64,000 nucleotides of DNA from Streptomyces diastatochromogenes (GTDB lineage: Bacteria; Actinomycetota; Actinomycetes; Streptomycetales; Streptomycetaceae). A program made the position numbers and the translations under genes. Positions 27,937-48,312 of the stretch are shown in pieces (position 1 is the stretch's first letter; every line of letters begins with the position of its first letter). The notes beneath the pieces are model-generated. The model made no database searches, was not told the origin of the DNA, and saw only the letters and a program-made list of their open reading frames with translations. The stretch covers positions 744,001 to 808,000 of the forward strand of contig JAPTYK010000001.1 in the NCBI GenBank assembly GCA_026913215.1, given 5' to 3'.

Positions 27937-28368
27937 CTGAATCAGCACTTCACCTTCGGCCGACACCCCGACTTCGGGTTCGTGGCCGCCCCCACCGCCA
28001 ACACGCCGCCGCACTTGGGCCATTGGTATCTCACGGCCGAGCAGTTCGAGCCCGTCCCCGGCTTCCAGGGGCTGTACCGGCTGGCCAACCCGGAGTACGA
28101 CGGTGTGCGCCGCACCCGGCAGGCCGTGCACGACCTGCGCCGGCACGGCTTCGACGTCCACGCCGACTACACGCTCGACCCCGCCCAGAGCGCCGGTCCG
28201 CCCCGGATCCAGCCCCGGGCCGGGCTGATGGAACGCCGCTCCCGGATCGCGCAGGCCGCCGGGATCCGCTCCTCGCAGTACCGGCCGGCCGTCACCGTCC
28301 AGGCCACACCCACGTCCCCACGGCCGGCCAGTCCACTCGCCGCTTCCGGACAGGGACGGGCCCGGTGA
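27937..28368 (+). CDS. Alpha/beta repeat-domain protein, 143 aa
   Basis: AAGGAG at 27926-27931 precedes CTG 27937 by 5-6 bases, giving LNQHFTFGRHPDFGFVAAPT. The domain continues through FEPVPGFQGLYRLANPEYD, then TRQAVHDLRRHGFDVHADYT and LDP. This beta-helix-beta-helix pattern, with a GF in the middle and RxxGFxVxxDxxLDP at the end, recurs in six other genes up to 48.3 kb, most clearly in the N-terminus of 47019-48312. The C-terminal 50 residues are basic and unstructured. Role unknown. Confidence 0.6.
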   Translation: MNQHFTFGRHPDFGFVAAPTANTPPHLGHWYLTAEQFEPVPGFQGLYRLANPEYDGVRRTRQAVHDLRRHGFDVHADYTLDPAQSAGPPRIQPRAGLMERRSRIAQAAGIRSSQYRPAVTVQATPTSPRPASPLAASGQGRAR

Positions 28369-29096
28369 CCAAGACCCCGATCAGCATCGTCCGTGGCCGG
28401 GGCGGTGAGGTCGAGGCGGAAGGGCCGATCGACTCGCTCGCCTCCGACCTGCTCTCCCAGGCCGGGTTCGTCCATCAGTACACCCTGAGCGGGACCTGGC
28501 ACCGCCTCCCCTTCGATATGGGCGAGGAATGGGAGAACGTCCACGCCTCCCACGCCGCCGAGGTGCTGCGCGCCGCCCGCTACCCGGTCCAGCTCGATCC
28601 CTCCCTCGCTCCCACCGCCCCGCCACGGGAGACCGTCGGGGACGGTTCCCCGCGCCCTATGCGGGCAGCGGCCCAGACCCTGAAGAGCTGGGCGCAGAAC
28701 ACCAACGGTCTGCGGCAGCCGTACGCGGCGGGGCGTACACTCGCCGCCCTCGCCCAGGGCGACGACAGTCTTCTGCGGCCCGTCGCCGACCTGCTGCTCG
28801 GCACGGCCTCTGCCGTCTCCGCGCTCCCTGGCCCCGCGCATGACCGGGACGCGCGGCGCCTGGCCGAACTCGCCGGAGTCCTGCGGGTGGTGGAGATCGA
28901 GGTCGACCGGATCGCCCTGCGCCTGCAAGCGACCCCTGACCTCGTGTCCTCCGCCGCCCGGCAGCACGCTCACGCAGCGGTCGAGGCTCCGCCGAAGCTG
29001 CAGGCCCTCGTCCATCGCCTCAGCGAACGACGAGCGCGGGAGTACGAGGCCCACCTGCCCCCGCCGGCACCGAGCAGCGGAGGTAGGGGCCGGTGA
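28365..29096 (+). CDS. Alpha/beta domain plus helical domain protein, 243 aa
   Basis: GTG 28365 overlaps the upstream stop as GTGA. Residues 1-95 carry the element's 80-residue alpha/beta domain (ISIVRGRGGEVEAEG, LLSQAGFVHQYTLSGTWHRL, AAEVLRAARYPVQLDPSLAP). Residues 105-220 are helical (SLLRPVADLLLGTASAVSAL, ELAGVLRVVEIEVDRIALRL), matching the second halves of the proteins at 34990 and 36439. No catalytic motif is visible. Coupling to both neighbours suggests they act as one set. Confidence 0.6.
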   Translation: MTKTPISIVRGRGGEVEAEGPIDSLASDLLSQAGFVHQYTLSGTWHRLPFDMGEEWENVHASHAAEVLRAARYPVQLDPSLAPTAPPRETVGDGSPRPMRAAAQTLKSWAQNTNGLRQPYAAGRTLAALAQGDDSLLRPVADLLLGTASAVSALPGPAHDRDARRLAELAGVLRVVEIEVDRIALRLQATPDLVSSAARQHAHAAVEAPPKLQALVHRLSERRAREYEAHLPPPAPSSGGRGR

Positions 29097-29503
29097 GCCC
29101 GGACCGTCCGCAGGCGCCATCCGGCACCGAGCTACGCAGGCGGGCCCGAGCCGAAGCCCTTCCTTTCTTCTCCGCTCTCGCGCTTGCCGACCCGGCCGAC
29201 CTGGTACGGGCCTGGACGCGCCAGCTGACCCTCGCGGGCTCTGCCGCCCAGGTCCACGTCCTCGTCGACACCCTGACCGGCACCGAAACCAGCACGCTCC
29301 TCGCCCTGCGGGACTTCCTTCACGCCACCGCCACCTGGTGCCACGACCGCGGCCAGCCGGCGCTCGCCGAGCGCTACCTGCGCACCGGCGACCTCTTCGA
29401 CATCGCCGACCGGCAGCTCTACCAGCTCGGCATCGACCACCTCACCGCCCTCCACCCCCAAGCCGCTCCGACCGAAAAGGAGGCCATCCCTGAATCCCAC
29501 TGA
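29093..29503 (+). CDS. Small helical protein, 136 aa
   Basis: GTG 29093 overlaps the upstream stop. The protein is nearly all helix: LRRRARAEALPFFSALALAD, LVRAWTRQLTLAGSAAQVHV, TLLALRDFLHATATWCHDRG and LAERYLRTGDLFDIADRQLY. The final 14 bases overlap the next gene, whose binding site lies within this gene's 3' end. A helical bundle of unknown role. Confidence 0.6.
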   Translation: MSPDRPQAPSGTELRRRARAEALPFFSALALADPADLVRAWTRQLTLAGSAAQVHVLVDTLTGTETSTLLALRDFLHATATWCHDRGQPALAERYLRTGDLFDIADRQLYQLGIDHLTALHPQAAPTEKEAIPESH

Positions 29504-30581
29504 CCTGGCTTTGTTCGCCCAAGCGGCCGGCAGCGCCGCCGGCCGCTCCTCCACCGAGATCACGTTGTTCACGAGCGAGCACGACGGCGTCGTCGGGCTC
29601 GTCGACGGTGCCAACTGGCGCTGGGCCCATACCGCGATGGAGCTCGCCGGGTTCGAGAAGACCGAAGACGGCAACAAGGCCGTTCCGCTGAGCGATCTCG
29701 ACCACGCCCGCGAGGCCCTGCTCACCCTGGGCGTGGTCGCCCAGCTCGCCGGCATCACCGTCACCGCGAGCGGTGAGACCTACGTCGGGGACTTCGCCCG
29801 CGACCTGGTGGAGCACCTCCCCGGCAGGTGGACGGTGAAGGTCGAGAACTACGCGATGAAGCTATGGCAAGGGGACCTCGCCGACTGCCTGTGGAGCACC
29901 GGGCACGTGGCGAGCACTCTGGAGAATCACCGTGTCGCGCGGGTGGCAATTCTCCGGCGCGACGACGGAGCAGAACTCACCGTCCTGCGGGACCCCCGGC
30001 AGGACCTGTACCACGTGGGCGCCCTGCATCCACGCGACATCGCCCCCGACGGGCTCGTGACTCCTCCCCCGGGCGTGAGCGTGCAGCCGACACCGTCCTC
30101 GGCCGCCGACGTAGTCAACACGCGCCTGTTGCCGGCCTACGCGCGGGCCGTTCTGCACTGCCGGGTCAACTCCCTGGAAGAGGACCTGTCCTGGACACGC
30201 GAGGCGTATGAGGCGGGCACCATCCCCGAGCCGCCTCCGGCAGATCTGGTGGATTCTTTCGCACGGTTCGCCACGACCGCGCCGCTCGTCATCGCCACCG
30301 TGCGCGCCCTGGGCACGCTCAACGAGCACGAGACGGCCTTCCTCCGGGAGGTGGAGAGCATCGCCGTGGCACCGGTCTCCGGCACCGGCCCGGCCCCTGT
30401 CGTGGCGCATCCCGATCCCCTGGGCTGGTGGTTGATCGAGGGCGGCGACGGACTGGTCGAGCTGGCGCTGCGCACCGTCGAGAACGCCGAACCCGCCGCC
30501 GCGAAGACCTCCCTTGTCGTCGGCCCGGTGCGGGCGTTGCCTCCCGTACCCCGCTCTCCCTCCCCAGCACCACGCCGGTGA
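29490..30581 (+). CDS. Two-domain alpha/beta and LPGxWT protein, 363 aa
   Basis: AAAAGGAGG at 29475-29483 is 6 bases before CTG 29490. Residues 20-95 are the 80-residue alpha/beta domain (EITLFTSEHDGVVGLVDGA, HTAMELAGFEKTEDGNKAVP). Residues 100-240 are the LPGxWT domain (LVEHLPGRWTVKVENYAMKL, LWSTGHVASTLENHRVARVA, VVNTRLLPAYARAVLHCRVN). A helical and then strand-rich C-terminal part follows. It therefore fuses the two domain types found separately in neighbouring genes. No enzyme motif is visible. Confidence 0.6.
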   Translation: MNPTDLALFAQAAGSAAGRSSTEITLFTSEHDGVVGLVDGANWRWAHTAMELAGFEKTEDGNKAVPLSDLDHAREALLTLGVVAQLAGITVTASGETYVGDFARDLVEHLPGRWTVKVENYAMKLWQGDLADCLWSTGHVASTLENHRVARVAILRRDDGAELTVLRDPRQDLYHVGALHPRDIAPDGLVTPPPGVSVQPTPSSAADVVNTRLLPAYARAVLHCRVNSLEEDLSWTREAYEAGTIPEPPPADLVDSFARFATTAPLVIATVRALGTLNEHETAFLREVESIAVAPVSGTGPAPVVAHPDPLGWWLIEGGDGLVELALRTVENAEPAAAKTSLVVGPVRALPPVPRSPSPAPRR

Positions 30582-31761: not shown

Positions 31762-31814
31762 CTCCAGCGGGCCGCGGGCGAACCTTCGCCTCCTCCCGGA
31801 AAGTCCCCGCCTCC

Positions 31815-33596: not shown

Positions 33597-33600
33597 CACC

Positions 33601-33632: not shown

Positions 33633-33653
33633 CACACATATAGCGCACGTCCG

Positions 33654-34989: not shown

Positions 34990-35679
34990 TTGGCGCTCAG
35001 CGACCGCCACATCGAACTGCGCCGCGATCCGCACTCCGGCGAAGTCCTCGCCCACGGAGGCGACCCGGAAGCCCACAGCATCCTGCAGCGCACCGGCTTC
35101 ATCCACGTGCTCCGCCAGCACGAGCAGTACCACCGCGCCCCCACCGGCCTCAACCAGACGGCCGAAGAGGTCCTCGCCACCACCGCGGTCTCCGCGCTCC
35201 GCTCGGTTGGCTACTGGGTCGCCTGCGACGAGACCTTCGACACCGACCGGCACACCACCCACGAACTACCCCTCGGCGCGCAGGTCGCCGCCCTCGCCGA
35301 CAGCCTCCGCCGTGCCACCACCACCCAGGACGCAGCCACCATCCTGACCGAGCTGACCGCCGCCCACGACGGCGTGCTCGCCGCCCTCGGTCAAGTACTC
35401 GACGCGACGGCCGAGTTCCTCGACATCTTCGACCAAGGCTTCGACCGACATACCGCCGCCACCCTCCGTAGCCTGAGCGGCCACCACCTCGCGATCGTCG
35501 CCACCCAGCTCCACCAGCTACGCACCGAACTCGCCGACCGGCACGAAAACCATCCCTCGCGCCGCCCCTGCCCGAGCGAAGTCGCGGACAACGAACGCGA
35601 AGCGTCCGTCCACTGCCCCTGCCCCATCCCCGCCCTGCCGCCCCGGCCGCCCGCCCCTCCGCCGGCCCGGCGCCTGTGA
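34990..35679 (+). CDS. Alpha/beta domain plus helical domain protein, 229 aa
   Basis: TTG 34990 follows ATAAGGAG. Residues 8-90 form the 80-residue alpha/beta domain (IELRRDPHSGEVLAHGG, ILQRTGFIHVLRQHEQYHRA, VSALRSVGYWVACDETFDTD). Residues 95-190 are helical (AHDGVLAALGQVLDATAEFL, HHLAIVATQLHQLRTELADR), as in 28365 and 36439. The tail is Pro- and Cys-containing. The protein is clearly paralogous to 36439-37091: RDPxxxxVLAxGGD and the YHR motif are shared. Confidence 0.65.
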   Translation: MALSDRHIELRRDPHSGEVLAHGGDPEAHSILQRTGFIHVLRQHEQYHRAPTGLNQTAEEVLATTAVSALRSVGYWVACDETFDTDRHTTHELPLGAQVAALADSLRRATTTQDAATILTELTAAHDGVLAALGQVLDATAEFLDIFDQGFDRHTAATLRSLSGHHLAIVATQLHQLRTELADRHENHPSRRPCPSEVADNEREASVHCPCPIPALPPRPPAPPPARRL

Positions 35680-35699
35680 CCCACGCACCAAGGACCGTC

Positions 35700-36442
35700 T
35701 TGCACGACACCGACCCCAGCGACCTCGAATCCTTCGCCACCATTCTGGCCGGCGAGCTGCCTGGCCGGTGGACCAGCCAGTACCACCCGACCACGGCGGC
35801 GGTACGGACTACGACCACCTCACCACCGCCGTGTGGGACATGGACCAGACCGCCCACGCCATCGCCACCCACGGCATGGCCCACTGCTCGATCCTCACCC
35901 GCACCGACGACGACACCCGCCTGCTCGTCATCGACCACCTCGGCCAGCCCGAAGGGTTCCTCATCTCCGCCCTGGCCCCCGCCGACCTCCCCACCGCCGC
36001 GTACACGGGAGTCCGCGAACCCGACGGACTCGCCGTCCCCGCCGACCCCTTCCACGCCGCCGAGGCCACCACCCTGCACCTGCTGCCCCGGTACGCCGAC
36101 GCCTTGGCTCATGCCCGCCGCAACGCCGCCGCGCTCGCCGCCCCGCTGCCCAAGCAGATCGACCTCACCTGGGCGGACGCTGCCCTGACCACCCCGGTCC
36201 CCGACTCCGTGGCACTGGCCAAGCTGCTGACCGAGCACGGATTCATCCGCGACGCCCGTCAGGACCTGCTTGTCCTGCCGGGCGATGACACGGCCGTGCA
36301 GGCGCAGTCCGTCCGGGCCCTCGGCGCCCGGCTCGCCGACCTCGGCGTCGGCATCGGAATGCGGCACCCACCTCGTCGGCACCCGCCGCGGCGCGCCCGC
36401 TACCCGCCCGCGCGACGATGTCCAGCGCGCGCAGCCGAGTGA
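35700..36442 (+). CDS. LPGxWT-family protein, about 247 aa, one frameshift
   Basis: TTG 35700 follows AAGGA. It matches 25974-26801 along its whole length: GELPGRWTSQYHPT, AVWDMDQTAHAIATHGMAHC, GLAVPADPFHAAEATTLHLL and PRYADALAHARR in the first domain, then LAKLLTEHGFIRDARQDLLV and LGARLADLGVGIGMRHPPR in the second. A one-base shift near 35790 separates the first 32 residues from the rest. GTG 35676 overlapping the previous stop is an alternative start. Unknown function. Confidence 0.6.
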
Positions 36443-37091
36443 GCTCCCCACCTCGGAGCCCGAGTTCCTGCTCCCCAACTACGTGACGATCATGCGTGAT
36501 CCGCGCACCCAGCTCGTCCTCGCGATCGGCGGGGACCAGCGCGCGGCCGGCATCCTGCAGACGGCCGGAGGCTTCACCCGCCACCCCGACCCCAGCACCC
36601 ACTACCACCGCCAGCCCGTCACCATGCCCGTCGAGCAGCAGCGCCTCAGGGCGACCGCCGCCTCCTACGCGCTGATGGCCTGCGGATACAGCACCTTCCT
36701 GGACCCCAGCCTCAACGTCTTCGCCACCCACGACAGCGACCGGGAAGCCGCCCACCGCTACCTCACGTACCTGACGGAACTCGCCCGCAAAACCGACGAA
36801 GGACCGGTACGCGCCGCCGTCCTCGCCGAGATCGCCGCACCCGAGACCGGAGTACTGCCCCGGCTGCGCGAGGTGCTGGTCTCCGTCTGGACGTCCTGGG
36901 GCAACCAGGTGCCCGCAGATCCCATGGACGGCGGGCCGGTCCAGCGCCTGATGGACATCACCACCGTGCTGTCGAGGAAGGCCCGGAAGATCGAAGAGCT
37001 GCGCACGCACGCAACCCGCTCACCGTCGTCCGCCGCCCCGGCCGCCCCGCCCGCCGCGAGCGCGAAGAAGTCCTCGCGCCCCCGCCCCTGA
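36439..37091 (+). CDS. Alpha/beta domain plus helical domain protein, about 217 aa
   Basis: GTG 36439 overlaps the upstream stop; one base must be added near 36444 to enter the main frame, otherwise GTG 36480 is the start. The alpha/beta domain reads YVTIMRDPRTQLVLAIGGDQ, ILQTAGGFTRHPDPSTHYHR and ASYALMACGYSTFLDPSLNV. The helical half (YLTYLTELARKTDEGPVRAA, LREVLVSVWTSWGNQVPADP, MDITTVLSRKARKIEELRTH) resembles 34990 and 28365. Ala/Lys-rich tail. Closest paralogue in the window is 34990-35679. Confidence 0.6.
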
Positions 37092-37115
37092 CCCCATCCT
37101 CTCCTGGAGCACGTC

Positions 37116-37565
37116 TTGAACCTCGCGGACAAGAACAGCACAGACGTAGAGATCTACCGCAAGTCGGGCCATCCCGACCGTCTCCACATCGTCACCAGGA
37201 CCGGCGCCCCTGAGGAACTCCTCGCCCGGCTCGACGCCTCCGGTCTGGAGCGTCGACAAGAAGCGACCGACGGGCCCGTCTACACCTGGCACGAGACCCC
37301 CGACGGCCTGGGTCAGAAGGCCCAGCGGCAGCTCACTACCCGCGCGATCCTCCCGCTCCTGATCGCCGGGTTCAACGTCAACATCGACCCCGACGAACTC
37401 GACGTCACCGCCTGGGCCCAGAGCATGCTGGCCCACCGCACCTCGCAGAAGCCGAACGCGAATCCCTCCCAGCCTCCGCCACCCCGGCCACCGGCCCGCC
37501 CCGCCCCGGCGCTGACCGCACCCCAGGCTCGCACCGATCCGCCGTCCCCTGGAGCCTTGCCCTGA
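37116..37565 (+). CDS. Alpha/beta repeat-domain protein, 149 aa
   Basis: TTG 37116 follows CTGGAG. The domain is VEIYRKSGHPDRLHIVTRTG, LLARLDASGLERRQEATDGP, VYTWHETPDG and ILPLLIAGFNVNIDPDELDV, with the GFxVxxDPxxLD end typical of the element's 80-residue domain. The C-terminal 50 residues are Pro/Ala-rich. It stands alone without a helical partner domain, but the next gene is a helical protein whose start overlaps this stop. Confidence 0.6.
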   Translation: MNLADKNSTDVEIYRKSGHPDRLHIVTRTGAPEELLARLDASGLERRQEATDGPVYTWHETPDGLGQKAQRQLTTRAILPLLIAGFNVNIDPDELDVTAWAQSMLAHRTSQKPNANPSQPPPPRPPARPAPALTAPQARTDPPSPGALP

Positions 37566-37955
37566 ACAAACACCCGCCCCCGCACCTACGGCGCCTACCA
37601 GGCCCGCAGCATCGCCACCCGGCTCGCCCACCTCAACGAGTACCTGACCCAGCCCGGCATCACACCACCCGACACCGTGGCCGTCCTGGCCGACGCCTTC
37701 GACCCCGAACACGGCGCCCTCGCAGGGTTCGCCACCCTGGCCGCCACCGCCAGCCACTTCGCCCAACAGCAGGCCACGCAGGGACTGTTGCCGCCGGAGG
37801 TACGGCTCGCCCTGGGGCGCGCCGCCAACGAACTGCACGACATCGGCCTCGACCTCGAAGAGCACCTCGACACCCTCGCCGCAGCCCGCACACCCTCCAC
37901 CCTGGGAGTCAAGCCCCCAGCGCCGGTACCTCTCGTCGTACGGAGGCACCGGTGA
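37562..37955 (+). CDS. Helical protein, about 131 aa, frameshift at its start
   Basis: The main frame has no start codon until GTG 37677, yet coding pattern begins earlier (TYGAYQARSIATRLAHLNEY). CTG 37562, overlapping the previous stop as CTGA and preceded by TGGAG, becomes its start if one base is missing in the C-run at 37573-37582. The protein is helical (AGFATLAATASHFAQQQATQ, LALGRAANELHDIGLDLEEH). It is coupled on both sides, and the next gene overlaps its stop as GTGA. Confidence 0.5.
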
Positions 37956-38767
37956 GCCGTCGGCAGCACCCCACCTGGGGCGCCGGCGACCAGGCCGAGC
38001 AGCACTACCTCGTCGAGCCCCGACATCTGGCCGGAGGCGGCGACATCCGGCACGTGACCGAGGTCCTGCGCGCCTCCGGCTGGACGGACCGCTCCGTCGC
38101 CGGCGGACCGCTCGTCTTCGACCGTTCCGACCACCTGGTGCGTGTCGCCTACGACCCCGCCGGGCAGCCAGGCGGCTGGCACATCCAGGGCCAGCCCACC
38201 GCGACCGAGCCCGGCTGGCAGACCACGTTCACCCGGCAGACCCCTGTGGAGATCGTCGCCGGCTTCACCGACGCCCTCACCCGCGAACGCTCCGCCCACG
38301 CCCCCAACCCATGGGCCCCGCTCCAGCAGCAGCAGTGGGAGACCGAGCGCGAGCAGCACTTCACCGCCATCAGCCCCGACCGCAACGCGTGGCTGCAGTT
38401 CCACCAGAACGGCCCCGGTCAGGCCCACTGGTGGGCCGGCGCCCGGACCGAGCACGGCCGGACCTGGGACGCCGTCTTCTCGGCCACGACGCCGATGCAC
38501 CTGATCGAGAGCTTCTCCGCAGCGCTCGCCGACCCGCAGCCGGCCATGCGTCCCCGCGGACACGTCCCGCCCTCGAAGTGGATCCAGGTCACCTCCGTGT
38601 CCGTACGGCCATCAGAGGTCAGCTCCTGGCAGCAGGCCCGGATCACCGCAGCCCGCGCCGCGACCTGGGGCCGAAATTCCTGGGCCGCCGCCCGGCCCCG
38701 CCCCCGCAAGCCGGCCCCGGCTCGCCCGTACGCCACGGCGGGCGGCGCCGCCCGCGCACGCCGATAA
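37952..38767 (+). CDS. Two-unit DUF317 (SPDY) protein, 271 aa
   Basis: VEPRHLAGGGDIRHVTEVLR marks the N-terminal DUF317 signature; RSDHLVRVAYDPAGQPGGWH is the first core and ISPDRNAWLQFHQNG with WDAVFSATTPMHLIESFSAA the second. The tail is Ala/Arg-rich. GTG 37952 overlaps the previous stop. It is the first of three DUF317 genes in 3 kb, interleaved with a helical-protein gene, so local duplication is likely. Confidence 0.8.
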   Translation: MSRRQHPTWGAGDQAEQHYLVEPRHLAGGGDIRHVTEVLRASGWTDRSVAGGPLVFDRSDHLVRVAYDPAGQPGGWHIQGQPTATEPGWQTTFTRQTPVEIVAGFTDALTRERSAHAPNPWAPLQQQQWETEREQHFTAISPDRNAWLQFHQNGPGQAHWWAGARTEHGRTWDAVFSATTPMHLIESFSAALADPQPAMRPRGHVPPSKWIQVTSVSVRPSEVSSWQQARITAARAATWGRNSWAAARPRPRKPAPARPYATAGGAARARR

Positions 38768-38790: not shown

Positions 38791-39648
38791 GTGGTCAGCG
38801 AGCGACAGCTCCGGGCCTTCGCCCAGGACCACCACAGGTACGGGTCCGCCGTCAGCCCGCGCTATCTGGCCGGACCGGGAGACCCCTGGCACGTCACCCA
38901 TGCCCTGCGCGCCGCAGGCTGGAAGGCCGACTCCGACCCTCTCCACCCCACGGTCGTCATGACGAGCCCCGACCATTCTCACTGGCTCACGATCGCCCCC
39001 GGCTCCCGGAGGACCTGCTGGCACGTCTCCGGTCGTGGCAAGCCCAGCTGGTCGATGTGGTTCAGCGGCAGCGCGCCGGTGGAGATCGTAGCCGCTGTGA
39101 CCGACGCCCTCGTCCGGCCCGTCCCCCAGGAGGATGCCCCGACGACCTTCGGCCTCCTCACCGACGCACACTGGCAGCACACCCCGGACAAGTCCGGCGA
39201 CGAGCACTTGCTGTCTCCGGACGGCACCATCGTGGTCAGCCTTCGCCTCTCTGACGTATCCGCCCTGCACTACTGGTCTATCGACGTCGCTGGCCATCAC
39301 GACCAGTACGGTCCGCAGCAACGGCTCTGGAGCGCGAGCCTCGACGGAGACGCTCCCGCGCATCTCCTGGCAGCCCTCGCAGGAGCGCTGATCGACCCGG
39401 CCCCCGTGCTGCGCACCCGCTTCGACATCCCAAGCAACCAGCACCTGGACGTGGGCGCCGAGTTCGAGATCCACGACCAGGCCGTCACCGCGCACACCAG
39501 ACGCCTGGCCGAGGCCCGCCGGCACCGCCCCAAGAACCTTCCGGTCACGAGCCTTCCAACCCCGAACACCTCCGCAGCCGCTCGTCTGGCAAGCCGCCGC
39601 TGGCCCTCACCTCTGCACTCAAGGAGCCATCCTGAGCACACCGTCTGA
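38791..39648 (+). CDS. Two-unit DUF317 (SPDY) protein, 285 aa
   Basis: GTG 38791 follows AGGAGG at an ideal distance. AVSPRYLAGPGDPWHVTHAL, VVMTSPDHSHWLTIAPGSRR and WHVSGRGKPSWSMWFSGSAP form unit one; LLSPDGTIVVSLRLSDVSAL and RLWSASLDGDAPAHLLAALA form unit two. Both contain the SPD signature. The reading frame is intact. Closest relative here is 40198-40953. Function of the family is unknown; a role in regulation or exclusion is only speculation. Confidence 0.85.
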   Translation: MVSERQLRAFAQDHHRYGSAVSPRYLAGPGDPWHVTHALRAAGWKADSDPLHPTVVMTSPDHSHWLTIAPGSRRTCWHVSGRGKPSWSMWFSGSAPVEIVAAVTDALVRPVPQEDAPTTFGLLTDAHWQHTPDKSGDEHLLSPDGTIVVSLRLSDVSALHYWSIDVAGHHDQYGPQQRLWSASLDGDAPAHLLAALAGALIDPAPVLRTRFDIPSNQHLDVGAEFEIHDQAVTAHTRRLAEARRHRPKNLPVTSLPTPNTSAAARLASRRWPSPLHSRSHPEHTV

Positions 39649-40201
39649 CAGACACGCCCTCCTGCTCAAGCAGCTGAAGCTGTTCCTCGTCGAGAGCGAG
39701 GAGACCCTCGCCGCCTGGGACACCTACTCCGGCGAGAACACCGATACCGAAGGCTGGCCCTACGACGAGGTGTCGTACGGCTGGCGCATGGTTCAGCGGG
39801 ACTCCGAGACATGGCGCGCGTTCCTGCCTGTCCGGTCCGGTGCCCGCCAGCTCCTCGCCACGGCCGCCGTCCAGCTCCAGCACCTACCCGCGGGCGACAT
39901 CGCACCCCACTGGGCACTTCACCTGCGCGAACTGAACGAAGCCTTCGACCGACTGGAAGAACTGCGCCACGGCCATGCCGAGGTCCGCGAGGCCCACCGC
40001 GCCACACCCGTTTCGCCGGAGGAGGTCGTCGACTCCGTCGCCGAGCGCAACGAGGAGGCGTGGGGCTACCTGGACACCTGGGCCGTCAAGGGACACGTCC
40101 TCCTCGACCTCCACGCCGCGGCGTACAAGATGCCCGTTCGATGGGTGCCGGCCCCGGCTCCGGCCCCGACCTCCGCCCGACGGACCGGGAGGCGCGGATG
40201 A
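39632..40201 (+). CDS. Helical protein, 189 aa
   Basis: AAGGAG at 39621-39626 is 5 bases before CTG 39632, and the gene overlaps the previous stop by 17 bases. It reads LSTPSDRHALLLKQLKLFLV, then LAAWDTYSGENTDTEGWPYD, and helices such as GARQLLATAAVQLQHLPAGD and LRELNEAFDRLEELRHGHAE. The acidic C-terminal half ends in a basic Pro/Ala tail. No family recognised. Its stop overlaps the ATG of the third DUF317 gene. Confidence 0.6.
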   Translation: MSTPSDRHALLLKQLKLFLVESEETLAAWDTYSGENTDTEGWPYDEVSYGWRMVQRDSETWRAFLPVRSGARQLLATAAVQLQHLPAGDIAPHWALHLRELNEAFDRLEELRHGHAEVREAHRATPVSPEEVVDSVAERNEEAWGYLDTWAVKGHVLLDLHAAAYKMPVRWVPAPAPAPTSARRTGRRG

Positions 40202-40953
40202 GGGTCGCGAAGGTCGAGCAGGCGCTCGTCTCGCCTCGGTACCTCGCCGGTCCGGGCAACCTGGCGTGGGTGACCGCCGCTCTGCACGCTGGCGCCGGAT
40301 GGAGCCACGGGCAGGACCCGCTCATGCCGCGGGTCGTCCTGACCAGCCCGGACCATAAGTCGATGCTCCGTCTGGAGCCGACGCTGAACCAGCCGTGGTG
40401 GCACCTGTCTCACCGCGACGGCCGCACCGGTGCGCAGTGGGCAGCGTCGTTCGACGGCGCCACGCCTGTCGAGCTGATCGCTGCGGTCACCGACGCGCTC
40501 ACCCACCCCGACTACAACGCCCGGGAGATGGCCGAGCCGTACAAGCTGCTGATGCGGGCCGGGTGGGATGTCGCGTCCAGCAGCGACTTCCGTTCGCCGG
40601 ACGGCCGTGTGCGGGGTGAGCGCCACAACTTCTCCGGCAGCACCGACTGGCGCATCACAGCAAGCCTCTACGAGGACGACCCCGTGTGGAAGGCCAAGTT
40701 CTCCAGCGCTACGCCCCGGGTGCTCGTGGCCGCGTTCCTCACGGCGCTCGCCGATCCGGAGCCGGTACGCCGCTCCCACGAACAGACCCAGGGTCTGTCC
40801 CTCCATCGGATCACCATGCAGTGGCAGGAACGGCCGGCGGAGAGCGTGGCCCGGGCGCTGCCGGAGCGGATCGAGCACCTCGCCGCCCGCCGCGCGAGCC
40901 TGCCGCCGCCCGCGCCACCGGCACCGCCGTCGACGCGACGCCACACCCGCTGA
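40198..40953 (+). CDS. Two-unit DUF317 (SPDY) protein, 251 aa
   Basis: ATG 40198 overlaps the upstream stop as ATGA. ALVSPRYLAGPGNLAWVTAA, VLTSPDHKSMLRLEPTLNQP and WWHLSHRDGRTGAQWAASFD make up unit one; DFRSPDGRVRGERHNFSGST and VWKAKFSSATPRVLVAAFLT unit two. The frame is intact. Both SPD motifs and the PRYLAGP signature are well conserved, so the assignment is firm even though the role is unknown. The coupling-protein gene follows after 36 bases. Confidence 0.85.
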   Translation: MRVAKVEQALVSPRYLAGPGNLAWVTAALHAGAGWSHGQDPLMPRVVLTSPDHKSMLRLEPTLNQPWWHLSHRDGRTGAQWAASFDGATPVELIAAVTDALTHPDYNAREMAEPYKLLMRAGWDVASSSDFRSPDGRVRGERHNFSGSTDWRITASLYEDDPVWKAKFSSATPRVLVAAFLTALADPEPVRRSHEQTQGLSLHRITMQWQERPAESVARALPERIEHLAARRASLPPPAPPAPPSTRRHTR

Positions 40954-40989: not shown

Positions 40990-42783
40990 TTGCGATCCGC
41001 CCCCTCCTCCAGCTCCGACGGCTATGACATAGCCCTGAAGGTGCTCCTCGCCGCCCTCGCCGTCGGCCTTCCCGCCGCCTCCATCGCCTGGCTGAGTGGC
41101 AACATCGCCGCCTGGGCGACAGGCACCGACCCCTGGGTGCCCTACCGTCCAGGCGACGCGCTCCTACGTCCCGAACAGCTCTGGCCAGCAGCGGGCGAAA
41201 CGCTTCTTCTCGTCGCCACCCGTATCGTCCCTGCCCTGCTGACGCTGGCCCTCGCTGTCGGCGCGGGCGTCCTGTGGCTCCGACACAAGAACCGGGCCGG
41301 CGGCAGGAAGAAGGCCGTCGAGGGGATGGCGACGGCCCGCGACATCCAGCCGCTGCTCGCCAAGGCCGTCGAGGCCAAGGCCCGCTCCCTGCGGCCGAGT
41401 CTGAAGAACGCCAAGCACATCGCCCCCCGCGACGCCGGCATCCTGGTCGGCAACCTCGCCGGGACCCGCCACGAGGTCCGCATGGGCTTCGAGGACGTCG
41501 CCGTCGCGATCATGGCCCCGCGATCCGGCAAGACCACCAGCCTCGCCATCCCCTCGATCCTCGCCGCACCGGGACCGGTCCTGCTCACGTCTAACAAGGC
41601 GGCAGGTGACGCCTACACCACCACGTACGACGCGCGCTCCGCCGTGGGGCGGGTGTGGTCGATGGACCCGCAGCAGATCGCCCACGCCGAGCGGAGCATG
41701 TGGTGGAATCCGCTCGCCGACGCCAAAACGCTCGACGGCGCGGGACGGCTCGCCGGGCACTTCCTCGCCGCGAGCGTGGACGCGAGCCAGCAGGGCGACT
41801 TCTGGTCCAAGGCTGGATCCAACATCTTGTCGCAGCTGTTCCTGGCCGCCGCGTTGGACGAGCGGCCGATCACGGATGTGATGGGGTGGCTCGCCTTCCC
41901 GGCGGACCGTACTCCGCTGGACATCCTGCGCGACCACAAGTTCACCGCGGTCGCTTCCCAGCTGAAGGGGACCGTGGAAGGGCCGCCGGAGACCCGTGAC
42001 GGGATCTTTGAGACCGCGCGCCAGTACGCCTCCGCCCTCCTCAACAGCGAGATCGCCGCCTGGGTCACCCCGCAGGAGAATGTCGACGAGTTCCGCCCCG
42101 CCGACTTCGTCACCTCCAACGACAGCCTCTTCCTGCTGTCGAAAGACGGCGGAGGCGGAGCCAGCGCGCTGATCGCGGCGTGCGCAGACTCCGTGATGCG
42201 GGCCGCAACCGCCCAGGCCGAGCGCACCGGCGGGCGACTCGACCCGCCGATGCTCGCGATCCTCGACGAGGCCGCCAACGTGTGCAAAATCTCGGACCTT
42301 CCGGATCTGTACTCCCACCTCGGCAGCCGCGGGATCATCCCGATCACCATCCTCCAGTCCTACCGCCAGGGACAGAAGGTCTGGGGCGACGCGGGCATGG
42401 ACGCCATGTGGAGCGCGGCCACCGTGAAAATCATCGGCTCCGGCATCGACGATCCCGACTTCGCCGACAAGCTGAGCAGGATGGTCGGCGACCACGACGT
42501 CGAGACCACCTCTACCTCGCACTCCGAGTCCGGCAAGTCGACTTCGGTGTCGATGCGGCAGGAACGGATCCTGCCCGCCGACGCGATCCGCGCACTGCCC
42601 AAGGGTTCCGCCCTGTGCCTGGCCACCGGCATGCGCGTCGCGATGCTGACCCTCCGCCCCTGGTACGCCGAGCCCGGCGCCGACAAGCTCGGAGCCGCCT
42701 CCGCCCGCGCTTCGAAGGCCATCACCGCCCGCGCCGTCGCCAAACAGCCGCTGTTCCAAAGCGACTTCGACCAGGCCGCGTAA
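40990..42783 (+). CDS. VirD4/TraG-type coupling protein, 597 aa
   Basis: TTG 40990 follows AAGGA. Two transmembrane helices (VLLAALAVGLPAASIAWLSG and IVPALLTLALAVGAGVLWL) lead into a TraG/VirD4 ATPase: Walker A MAPRSGKTTS near residue 176, PQQIAHAERSMWWNPLADAK, Walker B LAILDEAANV near residue 420, and IPITILQSYRQGQKVWGDAG. The frame is unbroken. It would sit at the inner membrane and hand the DNA substrate to the VirB4/VirB6 channel. It lies 16 kb from the other mating genes, separated by the array of unknown genes. Confidence 0.9.
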   Translation: MRSAPSSSSDGYDIALKVLLAALAVGLPAASIAWLSGNIAAWATGTDPWVPYRPGDALLRPEQLWPAAGETLLLVATRIVPALLTLALAVGAGVLWLRHKNRAGGRKKAVEGMATARDIQPLLAKAVEAKARSLRPSLKNAKHIAPRDAGILVGNLAGTRHEVRMGFEDVAVAIMAPRSGKTTSLAIPSILAAPGPVLLTSNKAAGDAYTTTYDARSAVGRVWSMDPQQIAHAERSMWWNPLADAKTLDGAGRLAGHFLAASVDASQQGDFWSKAGSNILSQLFLAAALDERPITDVMGWLAFPADRTPLDILRDHKFTAVASQLKGTVEGPPETRDGIFETARQYASALLNSEIAAWVTPQENVDEFRPADFVTSNDSLFLLSKDGGGGASALIAACADSVMRAATAQAERTGGRLDPPMLAILDEAANVCKISDLPDLYSHLGSRGIIPITILQSYRQGQKVWGDAGMDAMWSAATVKIIGSGIDDPDFADKLSRMVGDHDVETTSTSHSESGKSTSVSMRQERILPADAIRALPKGSALCLATGMRVAMLTLRPWYAEPGADKLGAASARASKAITARAVAKQPLFQSDFDQAA

Positions 42784-42853
42784 CCGTTCCCGCCCCCTGT
42801 CTCTGACGGGCACTGGCCCTGTCCCGCACACCATCCCCTCGCCGGAGAGACCA

Positions 42854-43420: not shown

Positions 43421-43495
43421 CACCCTTCGAATCCTCCTCCGGGCAGGTCCTCGCACCCCGCCGCCGGACTCGCCCAACGAACCCTGGACTCCACC

Positions 43496-44308: not shown

Positions 44309-44351
44309 GCCGGCCTGCCACCTGACCCCTCTCAAAAAGGAAGGCCCCACC

Positions 44352-44576
44352 ATCGGTTCCCCCACCACGGCCGAGATCCCGCTGCAGCTCTCCCAGGCCC
44401 TGACCTCCGTATCCACCAACTACGCCATCACTCGCGACCGGGTCCGCCAGCTGAAGGACTCAGGCAGGGAGGACGCCGCAGCCGAGGTGGAGCAGGGCGT
44501 CGTCAACGGCTGCTCCCCCTGGGCCTGCCGCGATGAGGCCTATGCGGTTCAGGCCGACTTCGGGCTGACGGCGTGA
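44352..44576 (+). CDS. Small protein coupled to the C5 methyltransferase, 74 aa
   Basis: AAAAAGGAAGG lies just before ATC 44352, and the frame reads IGSPTTAEIPLQLSQALTSV, ITRDRVRQLKDSGREDAAAE and VNGCSPWACRDEAYAVQADF. There is no ATG, GTG, TTG or CTG in this frame at a suitable distance, so ATC is the third apparent ATC start in the element. The stop overlaps the GTG of the methyltransferase, so it may set its translation level. Confidence 0.5.
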   Translation: MGSPTTAEIPLQLSQALTSVSTNYAITRDRVRQLKDSGREDAAAEVEQGVVNGCSPWACRDEAYAVQADFGLTA

Positions 44577-45862
44577 TCACGAGCCGCGATCTCGTGGTCG
44601 ACCTGTTCGCGGGACCGGGCGGCTGGAGTGTCCCCCTGCACCGCTTCGGGATCCGGGACGTGGGCCTGGAGTGGGACGAATGGGCCTGCAAGACGAGGGC
44701 GGCGGCCGGGCTGCTGACCATCCGCACGGACGTAGCCCTGTATCCGTGCCGGGTCTTCGCCGGCCGCACGCGCGGCTTCATCGCCTCGCCGCCCTGCCAG
44801 GCGTGGAGCAGGGCCGGCAAGCGTCTCGGTCTCGTCGACCAGCCGCTCGTCCACCAGGCGGTCGCCGACCTAGCCGCCGGCCTCGACACCCGCAAGAAGC
44901 TCCTGGCAGCCTGCCGCGACGAGCGTTCCCTGCTCGCGGCCGAACCGATGCGCTACCTCCATGCCCTGAACACCGTGGGTGAACCGGAGTGGGTGACGAT
45001 GGAGGAGGTCCCCGACGTCCTGCCGCTGTGGCGCCAGTACGCGGCGATCCTGCGCGGCTGGGGATTCTCCGTGTGGACCGGCATCCTCAACGCGGCCGAC
45101 TACGGCGTCCCGCAGACGCGCAAGCGGGCCATCCTGCTCGCCTCCCGCGTCCGGACAGCCGTGCCTCCGGCGCCGACGCACGCCCGTCTCGCCGAGCCGG
45201 AGAACCTGTTCGGGCCGGGCCGCGCGAGGTGGGTGTCGATGGCCGAGGCTCTCGGCTGGGGCGCGACCGACCGGCCCGTGCCGACGGTCTGCGCCGGCGG
45301 CGGGCCCGGCGGCGGGCCCGAACCGTTCCCGTCCGGCGCGCGCAAGACGCTGACCGACGCCCGCGAGCGCGGAACCTGGGCAGCTGCGCCGGTAGGCGAG
45401 GGCCTCGTCCTCAAGCCCCAGCCCCGCGGGACGAGCTGGAACGCCCGGCACGGCACAAGCGGCAACAGCCCGGCCTCCGGGCCTGCCCCGACGTTCACCA
45501 GCAAGGCGACTCACTGGACATGGGCCCTGCGCAGCAACAACCAGACCAACGCCACCGTTCGGTCGCTCACCGAGCCCGCGGGCACGCTGTTCTTCGGGCA
45601 CCGCGCGAACGAGTGCACCTGGGTCGCCCGGCCGACCGCCGCCGCGCAGGACCAAGAGAGCCCGCCGCCGGATCCGATCCGGATCACCGCCGCCGAGGCC
45701 GGCATCCTGCAGACCTTCCCCGCCGACTACCCCTGGGCCGGGAACAAGGGCCAGCAGTTCTCCCAGATCGGCAACGCCGTCCCCCCGCGTCTCGCCGCGC
45801 ACCTCCTCGCCCCGCACCTCGACCGCACCCTCTGCGCCGACGACTTCACCCTGGCTGCCTGA
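44573..45862 (+). CDS. DNA C5-cytosine methyltransferase, 429 aa
   Basis: All core motifs are present in the normal order: DLFAGPGGWS (motif I, residues 9-18), SPPCQAWS with the catalytic Cys (motif IV, near 72), MEEVPDVL (motif VI, near 142), QTRKRAI (motif VIII, near 180) and GNAVPP (motif X, near 400). The target-recognition part lies between residues 230 and 370 and is unlike the common short domains. The frame is intact. GTG 44573 overlaps the preceding stop. No restriction endonuclease is adjacent, so it is probably a solitary enzyme that guards the element against host cleavage. Confidence 0.9.
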   Translation: MITSRDLVVDLFAGPGGWSVPLHRFGIRDVGLEWDEWACKTRAAAGLLTIRTDVALYPCRVFAGRTRGFIASPPCQAWSRAGKRLGLVDQPLVHQAVADLAAGLDTRKKLLAACRDERSLLAAEPMRYLHALNTVGEPEWVTMEEVPDVLPLWRQYAAILRGWGFSVWTGILNAADYGVPQTRKRAILLASRVRTAVPPAPTHARLAEPENLFGPGRARWVSMAEALGWGATDRPVPTVCAGGGPGGGPEPFPSGARKTLTDARERGTWAAAPVGEGLVLKPQPRGTSWNARHGTSGNSPASGPAPTFTSKATHWTWALRSNNQTNATVRSLTEPAGTLFFGHRANECTWVARPTAAAQDQESPPPDPIRITAAEAGILQTFPADYPWAGNKGQQFSQIGNAVPPRLAAHLLAPHLDRTLCADDFTLAA

Positions 45863-47004
45863 TGCCCCACGCTTCCGACCCCTCCAACGAGGAACCGCCG
45901 TACGAGCCGCACGAACGCGAACCGGTCTACTACGCCGAGCAGGCGCTGCTCGGCGCCCTGCTCCTGCGGCCCGAACACCTCTCCCAGACGGACGCGTTGG
46001 AGAACGACGCCTTCTCCCACCCGGCGCACGGTGCTCTCTTCGCCGCCATGCGGACCGTGCGGGCGCCGGGGCTCCCGCGACCGCCGGACGGCCTGGACTG
46101 GCTGCGGGCCGTCCTGGAAGAAGCCCGCCAGGAAGCGCCGGCCCTGACCGCCGCCCACCTCCACCTGCTGATCTCCGCCTGCCCCCGCCCCGAGCACGCC
46201 GGCGCGTACGCGGCGATGGTGCGCTCCGGGCACGCTCGGCGCTCCATCCGCATCCACGCCGAAGCCCTCGCCCAGGCCGCCCAGGACGTCACCGTGCCCG
46301 ACCAGCCGGTACACGTCCTCGCCGCGGCCGACGCGCTCGCCCGCCACCTCGACACCCTCTCCCGTACCGTTCCCACCCACCCCGGCTCGCTGCCCCGCAC
46401 CCCTCTGCCGCCCCCGCCCGTGTCACCGCAGGACGACGAAACGGAGGACCATGAACGGATGCTGCTGGCCAGCGCCGTGTCCGGGCCGGCCTCCGTAGGC
46501 CAGATGCGCTGGCTCGCACCGGAGGACTTCACCGACCCGCTGCACGCTGGGCTGTGGCAGTGCGTGTCCGCGCTCGCCCACCGCGGCGAGCCGCTCGATC
46601 CGGTCACCGTCATGTGGGAGGCGCAGCACCGTGGGCTCCTTGCGGCAGGCGTCACCGCTGCCGACCTGGTCGTCCTGCTGTCGACGGCCGCTCTTCCCCC
46701 GGAGCACTGGGGCATCCAGATCGTCGAACGGGCCCTGCTCGCCCGTGCCCGGCAGACGGCCGGCCGGATCACCGCTTACGCCGAGGACCCGGCGAACACC
46801 GTCCACCAGTTGATCACGGGTGGACGCAGGGCCCTGGCCGACCTCACCGCGGTCCGCCGCCGCTGGCAGCAGGCCACCCGCCCGCTCTCCGAACCGGACG
46901 CATCCGTCACCTCACGCGCCGGCCCCGCCAGCCGCGCCCCCGTCACCTCGCCGCCGCCCGCGCGCCCCGCCGCCGTACGGGCCGCCGCCGGCCGAACCCC
47001 ATAA
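45862..47004 (+). CDS. Protein with two DnaB N-terminal domains, 380 aa
   Basis: ATG 45862 shares its A with the upstream TGA. Two copies of the DnaB-helicase N-terminal pattern are seen: AEQALLGALLLRPEHLSQTD with NDAFSHPAHGALFAAMR, and HERMLLASAVSGPASVGQMR with PEDFTDPLHAGLWQCVSALA. Each ends in helices (HARRSIRIHAEALAQAAQDV and RARQTAGRITAYAEDPANTV). There is no Walker motif or RecA-like ATPase, so it cannot unwind DNA itself; it may bind the host DnaB or DnaG and steer replication of the element. The C-terminus is Pro/Ala-rich. Confidence 0.8.
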   Translation: MPHASDPSNEEPPYEPHEREPVYYAEQALLGALLLRPEHLSQTDALENDAFSHPAHGALFAAMRTVRAPGLPRPPDGLDWLRAVLEEARQEAPALTAAHLHLLISACPRPEHAGAYAAMVRSGHARRSIRIHAEALAQAAQDVTVPDQPVHVLAAADALARHLDTLSRTVPTHPGSLPRTPLPPPPVSPQDDETEDHERMLLASAVSGPASVGQMRWLAPEDFTDPLHAGLWQCVSALAHRGEPLDPVTVMWEAQHRGLLAAGVTAADLVVLLSTAALPPEHWGIQIVERALLARARQTAGRITAYAEDPANTVHQLITGGRRALADLTAVRRRWQQATRPLSEPDASVTSRAGPASRAPVTSPPPARPAAVRAAAGRTP

Positions 47005-47018
47005 CCGAAGGACTCCCG

Positions 47019-48312
47019 ATGCCGTACGCCCCGCCGACGCCCACATCCGCTTCACCCTGCACCCGGACCACCATCCCGCCGTCATCGCGACCACGTCCGG
47101 GCCGACGGGCGACGCCGCCCGCTCCCACCTTCACGACCTCGGCTTCCGCAGCACCGGCCCGACCACGATGATCCTGGCCCGCATCGACCGTGAGGAGCCC
47201 TACTACGCCGGCCTCGCCGCCGAGCAACTCCGGCGGTACGGCTTCACCACCGAGATCGACCCCGTCCTCCAGGAGGAGGTCGACACCGAGTGGACCTGGG
47301 CGAACTACCCCATGCCCTGGTGCACCCGCGACGAGATTCGCGAGGTCAGCGCTGAGGCCCAGCGCATCCACGATGACATCGCCGAAGGCAAGCTGGTCAT
47401 CCACCTGCATGCCGACGACGGCCAGAACACCGTGGCCGTCGGCTCCTACGCCACGGGCGTGCGCCGGCACGTGCACCTCCACGGCGAGAACCACCTGCGG
47501 CAGGAGACCGACGCCGCGTTCGACACCGAGGCCGAGGCCGTCGCCGAGTTCCACCGGCTCTACTCCGTCGCCGTCCGCCCCGGCCCCGCCCCGCTCACCG
47601 ACCTCGAACAGGCCGTACGCCAGCTCCTCTCGGGCACACCTCCGGCCACCACCGAGCAGACCTCCGCGCCCGCGGCCGAGCCGCCGGTCGCAGGGCCCGG
47701 CGAGCACGAGGCGTTCCTCGCGACCCTGTTCGACGAGGAGCGCCAGTGGGAGAAGTACCGTCCCTTCGACGAGACGACCATCGCCTCGCACGAATCCCTC
47801 ACCGTACGAGTCGAGTTCGACCACGAGGCCCGGCACAGCAGCGACGTCGCCTGGACCATCGCCGAATACGACGGCCCGGTGGGCGAACGCCTCTGGCACG
47901 CCACCCTCACCGCCGGCACGCCCGTGCCCCTCATCCGCGCGATACTCCAGTACCTCGACGCCCCGCCCCTCACGACCGCCGACGGCCCGGACGACGTCCT
48001 CCACGACGCTGCCTGGCGCCCGGCGAGTCACCCCGCCCGCACCACGTGGTCGGCACCGGGCCGGAGCGTCGTCTTCGAGTCCACCCCGCACGCCGTAGCG
48101 GACCGATGGACGCTGTACGGCGGGGACAACCTCGACCGAGCGACGTGGACCATCCGCCTCTCCCCGGCGTCTCCACCGACCTGCTGTCCCAGCTCGCTGG
48201 CACCGTCGCCGGCCTCCTCCCCGCGCCCGCGCCGACGGTCCCGAAGCCGCTCCCGGCGCCCGCCCACCGGCTCCCCGCAGCCGCGCCGGCGATGCCCTCC
48301 CGAGGTCGGTAA
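47019..48312 (+). CDS. Fused alpha/beta and DUF317-like protein, about 431 aa
   Basis: ATG 47019 follows GAAGGA. After one missing base near 47033 the frame reads ADAHIRFTLHPDHHPAVIAT, the element's 80-residue domain ending RRYGFTTEIDPVL. A middle domain follows (KLVIHLHADDGQNTVAVGSY, AFDTEAEAVAEFHRLYSVAV). The last 180 residues resemble DUF317 (VAWTIAEYDGPVGERLWHAT, RATW..PGRSVVFESTP). A second shift near 48165 leads to the natural end at TAA-free TGA 48310-48312. This fusion ties the two unknown protein families together and is the last gene of the element's plus arm. Confidence 0.6.

Follow-up and report, generated by a model that had tools for sequence, protein, structure and literature searches.

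A repeated domain and a recurrent C-terminal arginine tail in a Streptomyces type IV gene cluster suggest proteins destined for transfer with DNA

In a stretch of 64,000 nucleotides from Streptomyces diastatochromogenes (the window), the genes for a repeated domain appear to belong to the non-machine part of a conserved type IV gene cluster, whose arginine-tagged proteins would be handed to the secretion channel and are predicted to enter the recipient hypha with the DNA, a reading to which we assign a probability of about 0.55. From the protein ends we infer that the tag would be a C-terminal translocation signal read by the coupling protein and that the tagged proteins would cross. The coupling protein of the cluster would recognise the tag, composed of a proline/alanine-rich linker and R-x-R or RR, and pass the tagged proteins to the channel, through which they would travel into the recipient hypha together with the DNA. 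The role of the domain after arrival is a guess; perhaps it acts on the DNA as it enters or on proteins of the recipient that meet this DNA. To the wider claim that a class of conjugative elements injects more than 25 different proteins with its DNA, all tagged R-x-R-COOH for the coupling protein, with the domain as the commonest payload module establishing the element in the recipient, we give slightly less than an even chance. Protein transfer during conjugation has been described for a few Gram-negative systems, and the literature searched, with most subscription journals outside it, held no Streptomyces report of conjugative protein transfer, of this domain or of the tag. If the reading is true, elements across the genus deliver many proteins along with DNA, and a three-residue motif would allow prediction of the payload from sequence, giving a first handle on many Streptomyces 'hypothetical proteins', of which gene 34990 alone has 310 homologues (E 0.01).

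The domain was searched with a profile of 102 copies from other genomes, recruited by iteration seeded with the window copies and excluding rows from the window genome and its close relative L025. Run on the 144 kb containing the window (1599 stop-to-stop ORFs, minimum length 50 aa), it recovered eight copies (E 2.7e-26 to 2.3e-11; Table 1), with the next match at E 0.055 and the top match in reversed sequences at 0.23. Seven copies expected to find one another in profile searches had originally been predicted; six are among these eight, two (at 26442 and 36149) had been overlooked, and the seventh, in gene 29490, lies at the expected position and is taken as a probable copy only because it groups (support 99/98) with orthologues from four other loci in which the domain is better preserved. 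The frames named at 36439 and 47019 contain stops and are off by one, the copies residing in the overlapping ORFs listed in Table 1. Genes were called by our own codon-usage script, so starts are less certain than ends. The domain occurs alone, with a helical bundle, before or after an LPGxWT domain, or with DUF317 (Pfam SPDY), which are the architectures that had been described, and the family comprises 115 copies, spread over 17 of the 18 loci groups.

Table 1. Domain-bearing genes, machine genes and other element genes of the window
Feature	Position	Strand	Match	C-terminus
275-aa gene: LPGxWT domain, then copy 1 (26442-26675)	25974..26801	+	E 2.3e-11; AF2 model	...APSLRPR, strict tail
Gene with copy 2 (27940-28185)	27937..28368	+	E 4.3e-21	...GQGRAR, strict tail
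243-aa gene: copy 3 (28374-28619), helical part	28365..29096	+	E 1.7e-18	...SSGGRGR, final Arg, outside strict rule
Gene with divergent copy 4 (29553-29768), then LPGxWT domain	29490..30581	+	E 0.49 alone	...SPAPRR, outside strict rule
229-aa gene: copy 5 (35002-35247), helical bundle	34990..35679	+	E 2.7e-26; AF2 model	...PPARRL, strict tail
ORF: partial LPGxWT domain, then copy 6 (36149-36379); N-terminally shorter than 254-aa L025 orthologue	35768..36442	+	E 4.0e-12	no Arg end in window
ORF: copy 7 (36474-36716), helical bundle; true start inside ORF	36270..37091	+	E 8.4e-22	...KKSSRPRP, strict tail
149-aa gene: copy 8 (37137-37394)	37116..37565	+	E 1.3e-18	Pro-rich tail, no final Arg here
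ORF: copy 9 (47036-47278), long middle, DUF317 (SPDY)	46820..48958	+	E 3.3e-15; SPDY E 7.2e-10	
Left-arm genes F35, F36, F37, F29	11592..14063	-		strict tail in 3 of 4
N4/N6 DNA methylase, left-arm start	16029..16784	-	PF01555 E 2.3e-32	tailless
NlpC/P60 cell-wall hydrolase of machine	17289..18413	+	E 4.5e-19	tailless
Two small machine genes, families F10 (DUF6112-like) and F11	18644..19554	+		
SCO6881- and SCO6880-family gene remains, several short ORFs	19583..22597	+		
VirB4-like ATPase split over two short ORFs	23644..24496	+		
DUF317 protein	37952..38767	+	SPDY E 1e-35	...GAARARR, strict tail
DUF317 protein	38791..39648	+	SPDY E 1.5e-20	tailless copy
DUF317 protein	40198..40953	+	SPDY E 2.6e-36	...STRRHTR, strict tail
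Coupling protein (T4CP, VirD4/TraD type)	40990..42783	+	TraG-D_C E 6.8e-35; T4SS-DNA_transf E 5.6e-23	tailless
C5 cytosine DNA methylase of element	44573..45862	+	PF00145 E 8.3e-29	tailless
DnaB-like N-terminal domain protein	45862..47004	+	PF00772 E 5e-23	Pro/Ala-rich end ...AAAGRTP

Several machine genes are broken in the window, and the VirB4-type ATPase, fragmentary here, is intact in relatives. Genome G013 encodes intact SCO6881 and SCO6880 members (E 1.8e-173 and 2e-129), a VirB4 member matching the VirB4-like CD1110 family (2e-18) and an F10 member matching DUF6112 (E 1.6e-6); families F10, F11 and F13, the last containing the VirB4 member, are each found in 12 loci groups. The cluster resembles actinobacterial type IV secretion ICEs and plasmids in its C40 peptidase, DUF6112, SCO6881, SCO6880, VirB4 and coupling proteins, and it shares with pNO33 and NZ_CP109484.1 the peptidase, SCO6880, a VirB4-like protein and the coupling protein. 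SLP2 genes of the SCO6880, SCO6881, VirB4 and VirD4 kind are needed for conjugal transfer according to PMC2782261, but SLP2, pNO33 and cmdABCDEF-like clusters are without the domain array. On a plasmid copy, genes annotated as relaxase and MobC lie at a distance of about 15 kb from that for the coupling protein. Tyrosine integrases lie at most 6 kb from the right end of element G057a, and at G057b, whose left arm falls outside the fetched sequence, 17-20 kb to the left of the fetched part. Since TrwC and Replic_Relax relaxases were absent from the chromosomal elements of ten genomes and an integrase near the element is certain in one case only, mobility of the elements is something that we infer.

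The order of the domain copies is preserved across most of 16 mapped loci, with the SCO6880/SCO6881/VirB4/coupling protein machine as conserved neighbours, and each of the nine copy types forms its own group in a tree, a grouping that is partly circular because copy types were set by best BLAST match to the window copies (8 of 114 tree rows fitted no type, and domain pieces below 70 aa were left out). Local amplification and shuffling, proposed originally as the source of the array, gives way to paralogues whose order is shared by other genomes; a recent local amplification was rejected on this retained order and on the separate grouping of each copy type. The companion suggestion that the array is no random cargo is borne out by the same conservation and by the tie to one coupling-protein group. 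Among the matches listed, 43 genomes have a coupling protein of this type and 42 of them carry the domain, which occurred in none of 18 genomes with only divergent coupling proteins and in 1 of 89 without one. Likewise among the matches listed, 41 of 50 domain clusters lay within 20 kb of such a coupling protein gene on the same contig; of the other nine, two (in G012) are megabases away from it, one (G055) has none and six are on different contigs.

In a scan of 396 genomes of the phylum, firm domain matches were found in five, all of the same genus. Ten weaker matches (E 1.6e-5 to 8.4e-4) were fetched and look like chance, resembling, as read from sequence, HemW, peptide-binding proteins, serine hydroxymethyltransferase and similar proteins. 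Gene 34990 matched one weak plasmid record and no phage in the plasmid and phage collections, and a scan of a contig collection found the single locus L025. The restriction to mycelial bacteria that had been proposed is thus retained in part, as firm matches in one genus among these genomes. This confinement, together with the adjoining conjugation-type machine, fits the accompanying idea that the array serves mycelial bacteria for recognition, entry exclusion or spore transfer, but domain proteins read by eye show no membrane or secretion signal and the common tag points elsewhere, and we regard this idea as extremely improbable.

Arginine is the last residue of half or more of the members in 28 out of 44 recurrent element families, a count independent of any division into machine and other proteins; the usual form is R-x-R or RR following a stretch rich in proline and alanine. 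Under a strict tail rule, defined after the pattern had been noticed, 206 of 516 element proteins of these families carry the ending (513 without the C5 contig; proteins below 80 aa excluded) versus none of 207 core proteins, the core sample, domain-less clusters and relaxases having been fetched after the rule was set. Relatives are treated as independent observations, which makes p-values too small. By family, 17 of the 44 are tailed in at least half of their members and 20 in at most one tenth. With families equally weighted, the last residue is arginine at a frequency of 0.77 in 29 non-machine families, 0.08 in 15 machine families and 0.15 in core proteins, and the third-last residue at 0.47, 0.11 and 0.11, respectively, the machine families having been assigned by us after the tail counts and including some of unknown function. 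A charge measure adapted from PMC11288057, asking for a hydrophilic stretch with a net charge above 1 over the last 25 residues (Hopp-Woods values were substituted here), selected 284 of the 365 non-machine proteins, 48 of the 151 machine proteins, 43 of the 207 core proteins and 98 of 114 domain-bearing ORFs; the bodies of non-machine proteins are acidic (-3.6 per 100 aa).

Only four of the nine domain ORFs of the window carry it in strict form, and the DnaB-like family F19 is tailed in 7 of 10 members, the untailed ones including that of the window, compared with 42 of 51 members of the DUF317 family F0. G067 has a compact element with the domain, in which 9 of 37 proteins are tailed and only 16 of 37 pass the charge measure. 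Tailed proteins are very rare in six chromosomal loci that lack the domain and whose coupling protein is distantly related, at 2 of 190 (one of these domain-less loci, G107x, showed of the machine only the coupling protein and a peptidase, without VirB4), and number 1 of 43 and 2 of 32 on the two plasmids. That the arginine endings are a functionless by-product of how genes end, through ribosome-binding sites or GC-rich 3' ends, would be in line with the dense gene packing, 42 of 200 tailed genes overlapping the next gene; however, the next gene starts more than 30 nt away for 107 of the 200, the terminal arginine codons are much like those of the body (AGG 0.07 versus 0.04, CGC 0.53 versus 0.53) and the ending is missing from machine and core genes, which leaves this explanation very improbable. 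Its specific form, terminal arginine as a ribosome-binding-site artefact, was rejected on codon usage and gene spacing.

Relaxases are exported and are the classic substrates of such conjugation machines. On related plasmids, 8 of 10 relaxases show the arginine ending, versus 14 of 207 core proteins, the ten consisting of seven chosen among 30 listed rows (234 records in all) together with the query, pNO33 and p1; a related coupling protein was seen on only some of these plasmids. The two without the ending are L099 and L108, one of which sits on a plasmid carrying domain proteins. According to PMC8525350, Agrobacterium effectors bear an arginine-rich C-terminal signal. Like the C-terminal signals of VirB/D4 systems (Agrobacterium effectors and F-system substrates), the ends seen here are hydrophilic, rich in arginine and net positive on unrelated proteins; the putative signal differs in its strict R-x-R or RR terminus after a proline/alanine-rich stretch and in its spread over many families of one actinomycete element. 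The same tag could be a docking peptide on the donor coupling protein or relaxosome, worn by proteins that help to load DNA and stay unexported. The tie to the coupling protein and the tag fit this too, as do the cooperation of TraB with Spd membrane proteins in Streptomyces plasmids (PMC12857230) and the RSR or RTR ends of AAA and VWA proteins, which look more like donor-side assembly factors and show that the tag is not confined to small proteins. Given the ending on exported relaxases and a number of families, above 25, that we judge large for a donor-side complex, we consider docking without export unlikely, though worth weighing, and favour transfer into the recipient.

The copies had been expected to share one fold, and the AF2 models of two different copies (genes 34990 and 25974) indeed agree, with high confidence, in their sequence of secondary-structure elements, beta-beta-alpha-beta-beta-alpha-beta. 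The domain has no family match in Pfam, NCBIfam or PHROG. Its nearest relative found is the N-terminal domain of DUF3560 proteins, with a profile-profile probability of 93.5 for the 102-row profile (reversed target 0.1; 60 column shuffles at most 0.6) and 95.5 for A2, in a comparison using just four DUF3560-type sequences chosen for a look-alike motif. A DUF3560 protein was also the top match outside the genus in the 396 genomes (E 7.1e-6), but chance-like matches reach about 1e-5 in that scan and the relationship therefore leans mainly on the profile comparison. At E 10, a search with 26 members listed six families, and the Pfam DUF3560 model was absent from this listing, from which program filters remove most matches above about 0.1. 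DUF3560 has matches in 4 of 41 genomes, and its N-terminal stretch gave two matches in 246. The two domains have different partners, and the repeated domain is acidic on average.

A relationship to the XPB damage-recognition domain had been anticipated from a motif ahead of the fold search. The domain might be a branched-DNA or single-stranded-DNA-binding module of this kind, on proteins that process transferred DNA wherever they act. With one of the models, the entries that VIA-align ranked highest for the domain were those of XPB, a weak structural likeness to the XPB domain and the N-terminal domain of T4 UvsW; in contrast to these, the repeated domain is acidic, has no joined helicase and shows no sequence match. 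Its negative mean net charge (-2.87) argues against plain DNA binding, and we hold a DNA-processing module of this type to be improbable, though it merits a hearing. As a family assignment XPB/UvsW was dropped and kept as a lead: Foldseek gave nothing at E 0.001, a PDB sequence search returned chance-like rows only (best E 0.093), XPB_DRD was absent from the families listed for the 26 members, profile comparison with UvsW gave 0.1-0.3 %, and XPB_DRD (PF18458) occurred in none of 21 related genomes. Membership of DUF317 (SPDY) was likewise rejected on a profile-profile probability of 0.5; dissimilar as the domains are, DUF317 proteins reside in the same elements, often bear the same tail and in one ORF are joined to the repeated domain.

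A profile built from a first alignment of the nine candidate window copies of the repeated domain returned, on the same genome, these nine, which are themselves part of it, plus one further copy, located on contig C5 (E 1.5e-6). A stricter profile comprised 102 copies, all from other genomes and none from this genome or the fetched locus L025, its rows having been gathered by an iteration started from the window copies; it found eight window copies at E values of 2.7e-26 to 2.3e-11, with the next match at 0.055 and a best score of 0.23 on reversed ORFs. The original prediction that the copies, then counted as seven, find one another by profile holds for these eight; the copy at 29490 reached 0.49 and is accepted only because recognisable orthologues from four other loci group with it (99/98). 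The domain has no family in Pfam, NCBIfam or PHROGs, and 26 diverse members searched against Pfam at E 10 matched six families, each with one member only (best E 0.0031). Its relation to DUF3560 and a weak match to the XPB damage-recognition domain suggest that it may touch DNA; simple binding to DNA is made less likely by its acidic charge. Elsewhere in this genome, two genes resembling 37116 lie at 118576-119149 of contig C5 (L031/L032), without the remaining array.

The window lies at 744001-808000 on a contig of 7.72 Mb; the genome has 9.27 Mb in 7 contigs and a completeness of 88.96 %. The named homologues of gene 34990, among the 120 matches listed, are from Streptomyces, on which basis the genome is taken to be a Streptomyces.

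Layout of the window and of genes flanking the domain array
Feature	Position	Strand	Remark
Left arm of the element	leftmost part of array stretch	-	
MFS transporter and ATP-grasp enzyme fused in one protein	7455-10229	-	parts resembled by families F59 and F60, separate genes in genomes G013, G038 and G091
N4/N6 methylase	16029-16784		right of left-arm genes
NlpC/P60 hydrolase, small machine genes, remains of SCO6881-/SCO6880-family and VirB4-like ATPase genes	after methylase	+	
Machine genes	19583-24496		split or fused relative to relatives' genes
Domain genes, three DUF317 genes	following the machine genes	+	
Helical/MFS genes	30578-33596		split or fused relative to relatives' genes
VirD4-type coupling protein	40990-42783	+	after the DUF317 genes
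C5 methylase, DnaB-N-terminal protein, long domain-plus-DUF317 ORF	right of coupling protein	+	
RHS-repeat protein, 1298 aa	55068-58964	-	DUF6531, WXG100-like start; polymorphic-toxin kind; outside the element
302-aa protein	62091-62999	+	38 family matches, the 25 shown mostly helix-turn-helix, in several stretches

Among the matches listed, the domain is present in 43 of 150 genomes of the genus, several with many clustered copies on the same strand, and G057, G110 and G116 carry more than one cluster each. Families were mapped around 14 fetched clusters, the window locus and L025, and a common order emerged: methylase, hydrolase, F10, F11, SCO6881, SCO6880, F14 and VirB4; then the LPGxWT-domain gene, the 27937- and 28365-type genes and the 29490-type gene, with AAA and VWA genes in some loci; and finally the block 34990/35768/36270/37116, DUF317 genes, coupling protein, C5 methylase, DnaB-N and the 46820-type gene. 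The G012 locus is truncated past the 34990-37116 block, while G091 shows the array in a compact form. A 4-base overlap between the second and third block genes is present in 7 of the 9 loci compared for it. Grouping across genomes keeps the nine copy types apart from one another, which is partly circular since types were assigned by best BLAST to the window copies.

The domain goes with one group of coupling proteins. Coupling proteins with at least 60 % identity to the window protein over the matched part occur in 43/150 genomes, 42 of which carry the domain, compared with 0/18 genomes having only more distant coupling proteins and 1/89 without a match (all among the matches listed). Of 50 listed domain clusters, 41 share a contig with such a coupling protein and lie at most 20 kb from it; the remaining nine comprise six on other contigs, two (G012) far from it and one (G055) without it. 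Open frames of about 6300-6550 aa lie near divergent type IV coupling proteins at L071 (G095:C7) and L095 (G141:C2), one of the two containing a DUF3560-N-like stretch.

Plasmid p1 of S. angustmyceticus is a plasmid copy with machine genes and two tailed domain proteins (2.9e-30, 1.4e-17); roughly 15 kb separate its coupling protein from a relaxase and MobC, both annotated. TrwC and Replic_Relax relaxases were absent within the chromosomal elements of ten genomes. Tyrosine integrases are found near one element (G057a), at its right end, and may sit past the left arm of another (G057b), which lies outside the fetched part. Streptomyces is known to harbour T4SS-type ICEs, one of which reportedly excised under genotoxic stress, its transfer not being observed (PMC9513070).

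Like endings of unrelated proteins were noticed on reading, and the tail rule was set afterwards: R or K at two or more of the last four positions in a protein of at least 80 aa, the preceding 30 residues being at least half P/A/S/T with at most 20 % large hydrophobics. Such tails occur in 206/516 proteins of the element set (44 families, each found in at least five loci groups) versus 0/207 core proteins (sampled from 12 chromosome-interior stretches, 20 kb each). The tail goes by family, with at least half of the members tailed in 17/44 families and at most a tenth in 20/44; the latter include both methylase families and the transporter, and the counts are 0/15 for the coupling protein, 0/13 for SCO6880, 0/11 for SCO6881 and 0/12 for VirB4. 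With families weighted once and divided by us into machine and non-machine, Arg is the last residue in 0.77 of non-machine, 0.08 of machine and 0.15 of core proteins, and the third-last in 0.47, 0.11 and 0.11; in the non-machine set the second-last residue is S/T in 0.38, and Pro reaches about 0.3 at -11 to -14. The commonest endings among the 206 are RTR (31), RSR (27), RRR (18), ARR (17) and RAR (12). Non-machine bodies have an acidic net charge of -3.6 per 100 residues, and their last 25 residues average +3.0. In the six families compared, conservation is lower in the linker ahead of the end than in the body, clearly in some (F3, 0.51 vs 0.29) and barely in one (F20, 0.48 vs 0.46). A ribosome-binding-site effect as source of the Arg ends was rejected because the terminal Arg codons are close to body usage and the next gene lies more than 30 nt away in 107 of 200 tailed genes.

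The split persists under a criterion drawn from PMC11288057, which selects 284/365 non-machine, 48/151 machine and 43/207 core proteins; it also selects 98/114 domain-bearing ORFs, 73/114 being tailed by the strict rule. In the window, the strict rule picks 4/9 domain ORFs (25974, 27937, 34990, 36270); 28365 and 29490 have a final Arg without the strict tail, 35768 and 37116 have neither, and the terminal stretch of 46820 is of doubtful reading.

Loci without the domain served as controls. Six with a distant coupling protein (five with VirB4) had 2/190 tailed proteins versus 9/37 in the compact domain-bearing element of G067, and two related plasmids lacking the domain had 1/43 and 2/32 versus 5/40 in p1. 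The substrates classically handled by conjugative coupling proteins are relaxases, and ten of them, all from actinomycete plasmids, were compared: the query, the pNO33 and p1 relaxases, and seven chosen by us from 30 rows listed out of 234. Eight have Arg as the final residue and two or more basic residues among the last four, the exceptions being p1's own and one from Arthrobacter. R/K endings of that kind occur in 14/207 core proteins and in 2/35 of those of at least 450 aa. Only part of the ten relaxases have a Pro-rich stretch before the end, and a related coupling protein was seen for only some of their plasmids. At locus L106, a relaxase gene adjoins an annotated FxSxx-COOH system gene.

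The simplest reading of these sequences is that the element marks its payload, domain proteins among it, with a putative C-terminal transport signal. In Agrobacterium, VirB/D4 substrates that are otherwise unrelated bear a hydrophilic, Arg-rich signal at the C-terminus (PMC8525350), and an F-type system transfers many plasmid-encoded proteins, positive C-termini there being able to carry Cre (PMC11288057). The tailed element proteins share with the VirB/D4 substrates an Arg-rich C-terminus on unrelated proteins, and the payload would be marked in the same manner. The main rival is a role of the tag in docking on the donor side.

The window's own copy of the element may be non-functional because its SCO6881, SCO6880 and VirB4 genes are broken into pieces and, among the 30 genes it has from element families, 4 fall below 70 % of the family median length (0-3 in nine other loci). 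The broken genes may reflect decay or, given the low genome completeness, sequencing error; one 20-kb core stretch of this genome has a coding fraction of 0.76, within the range of the others (0.68-0.89).
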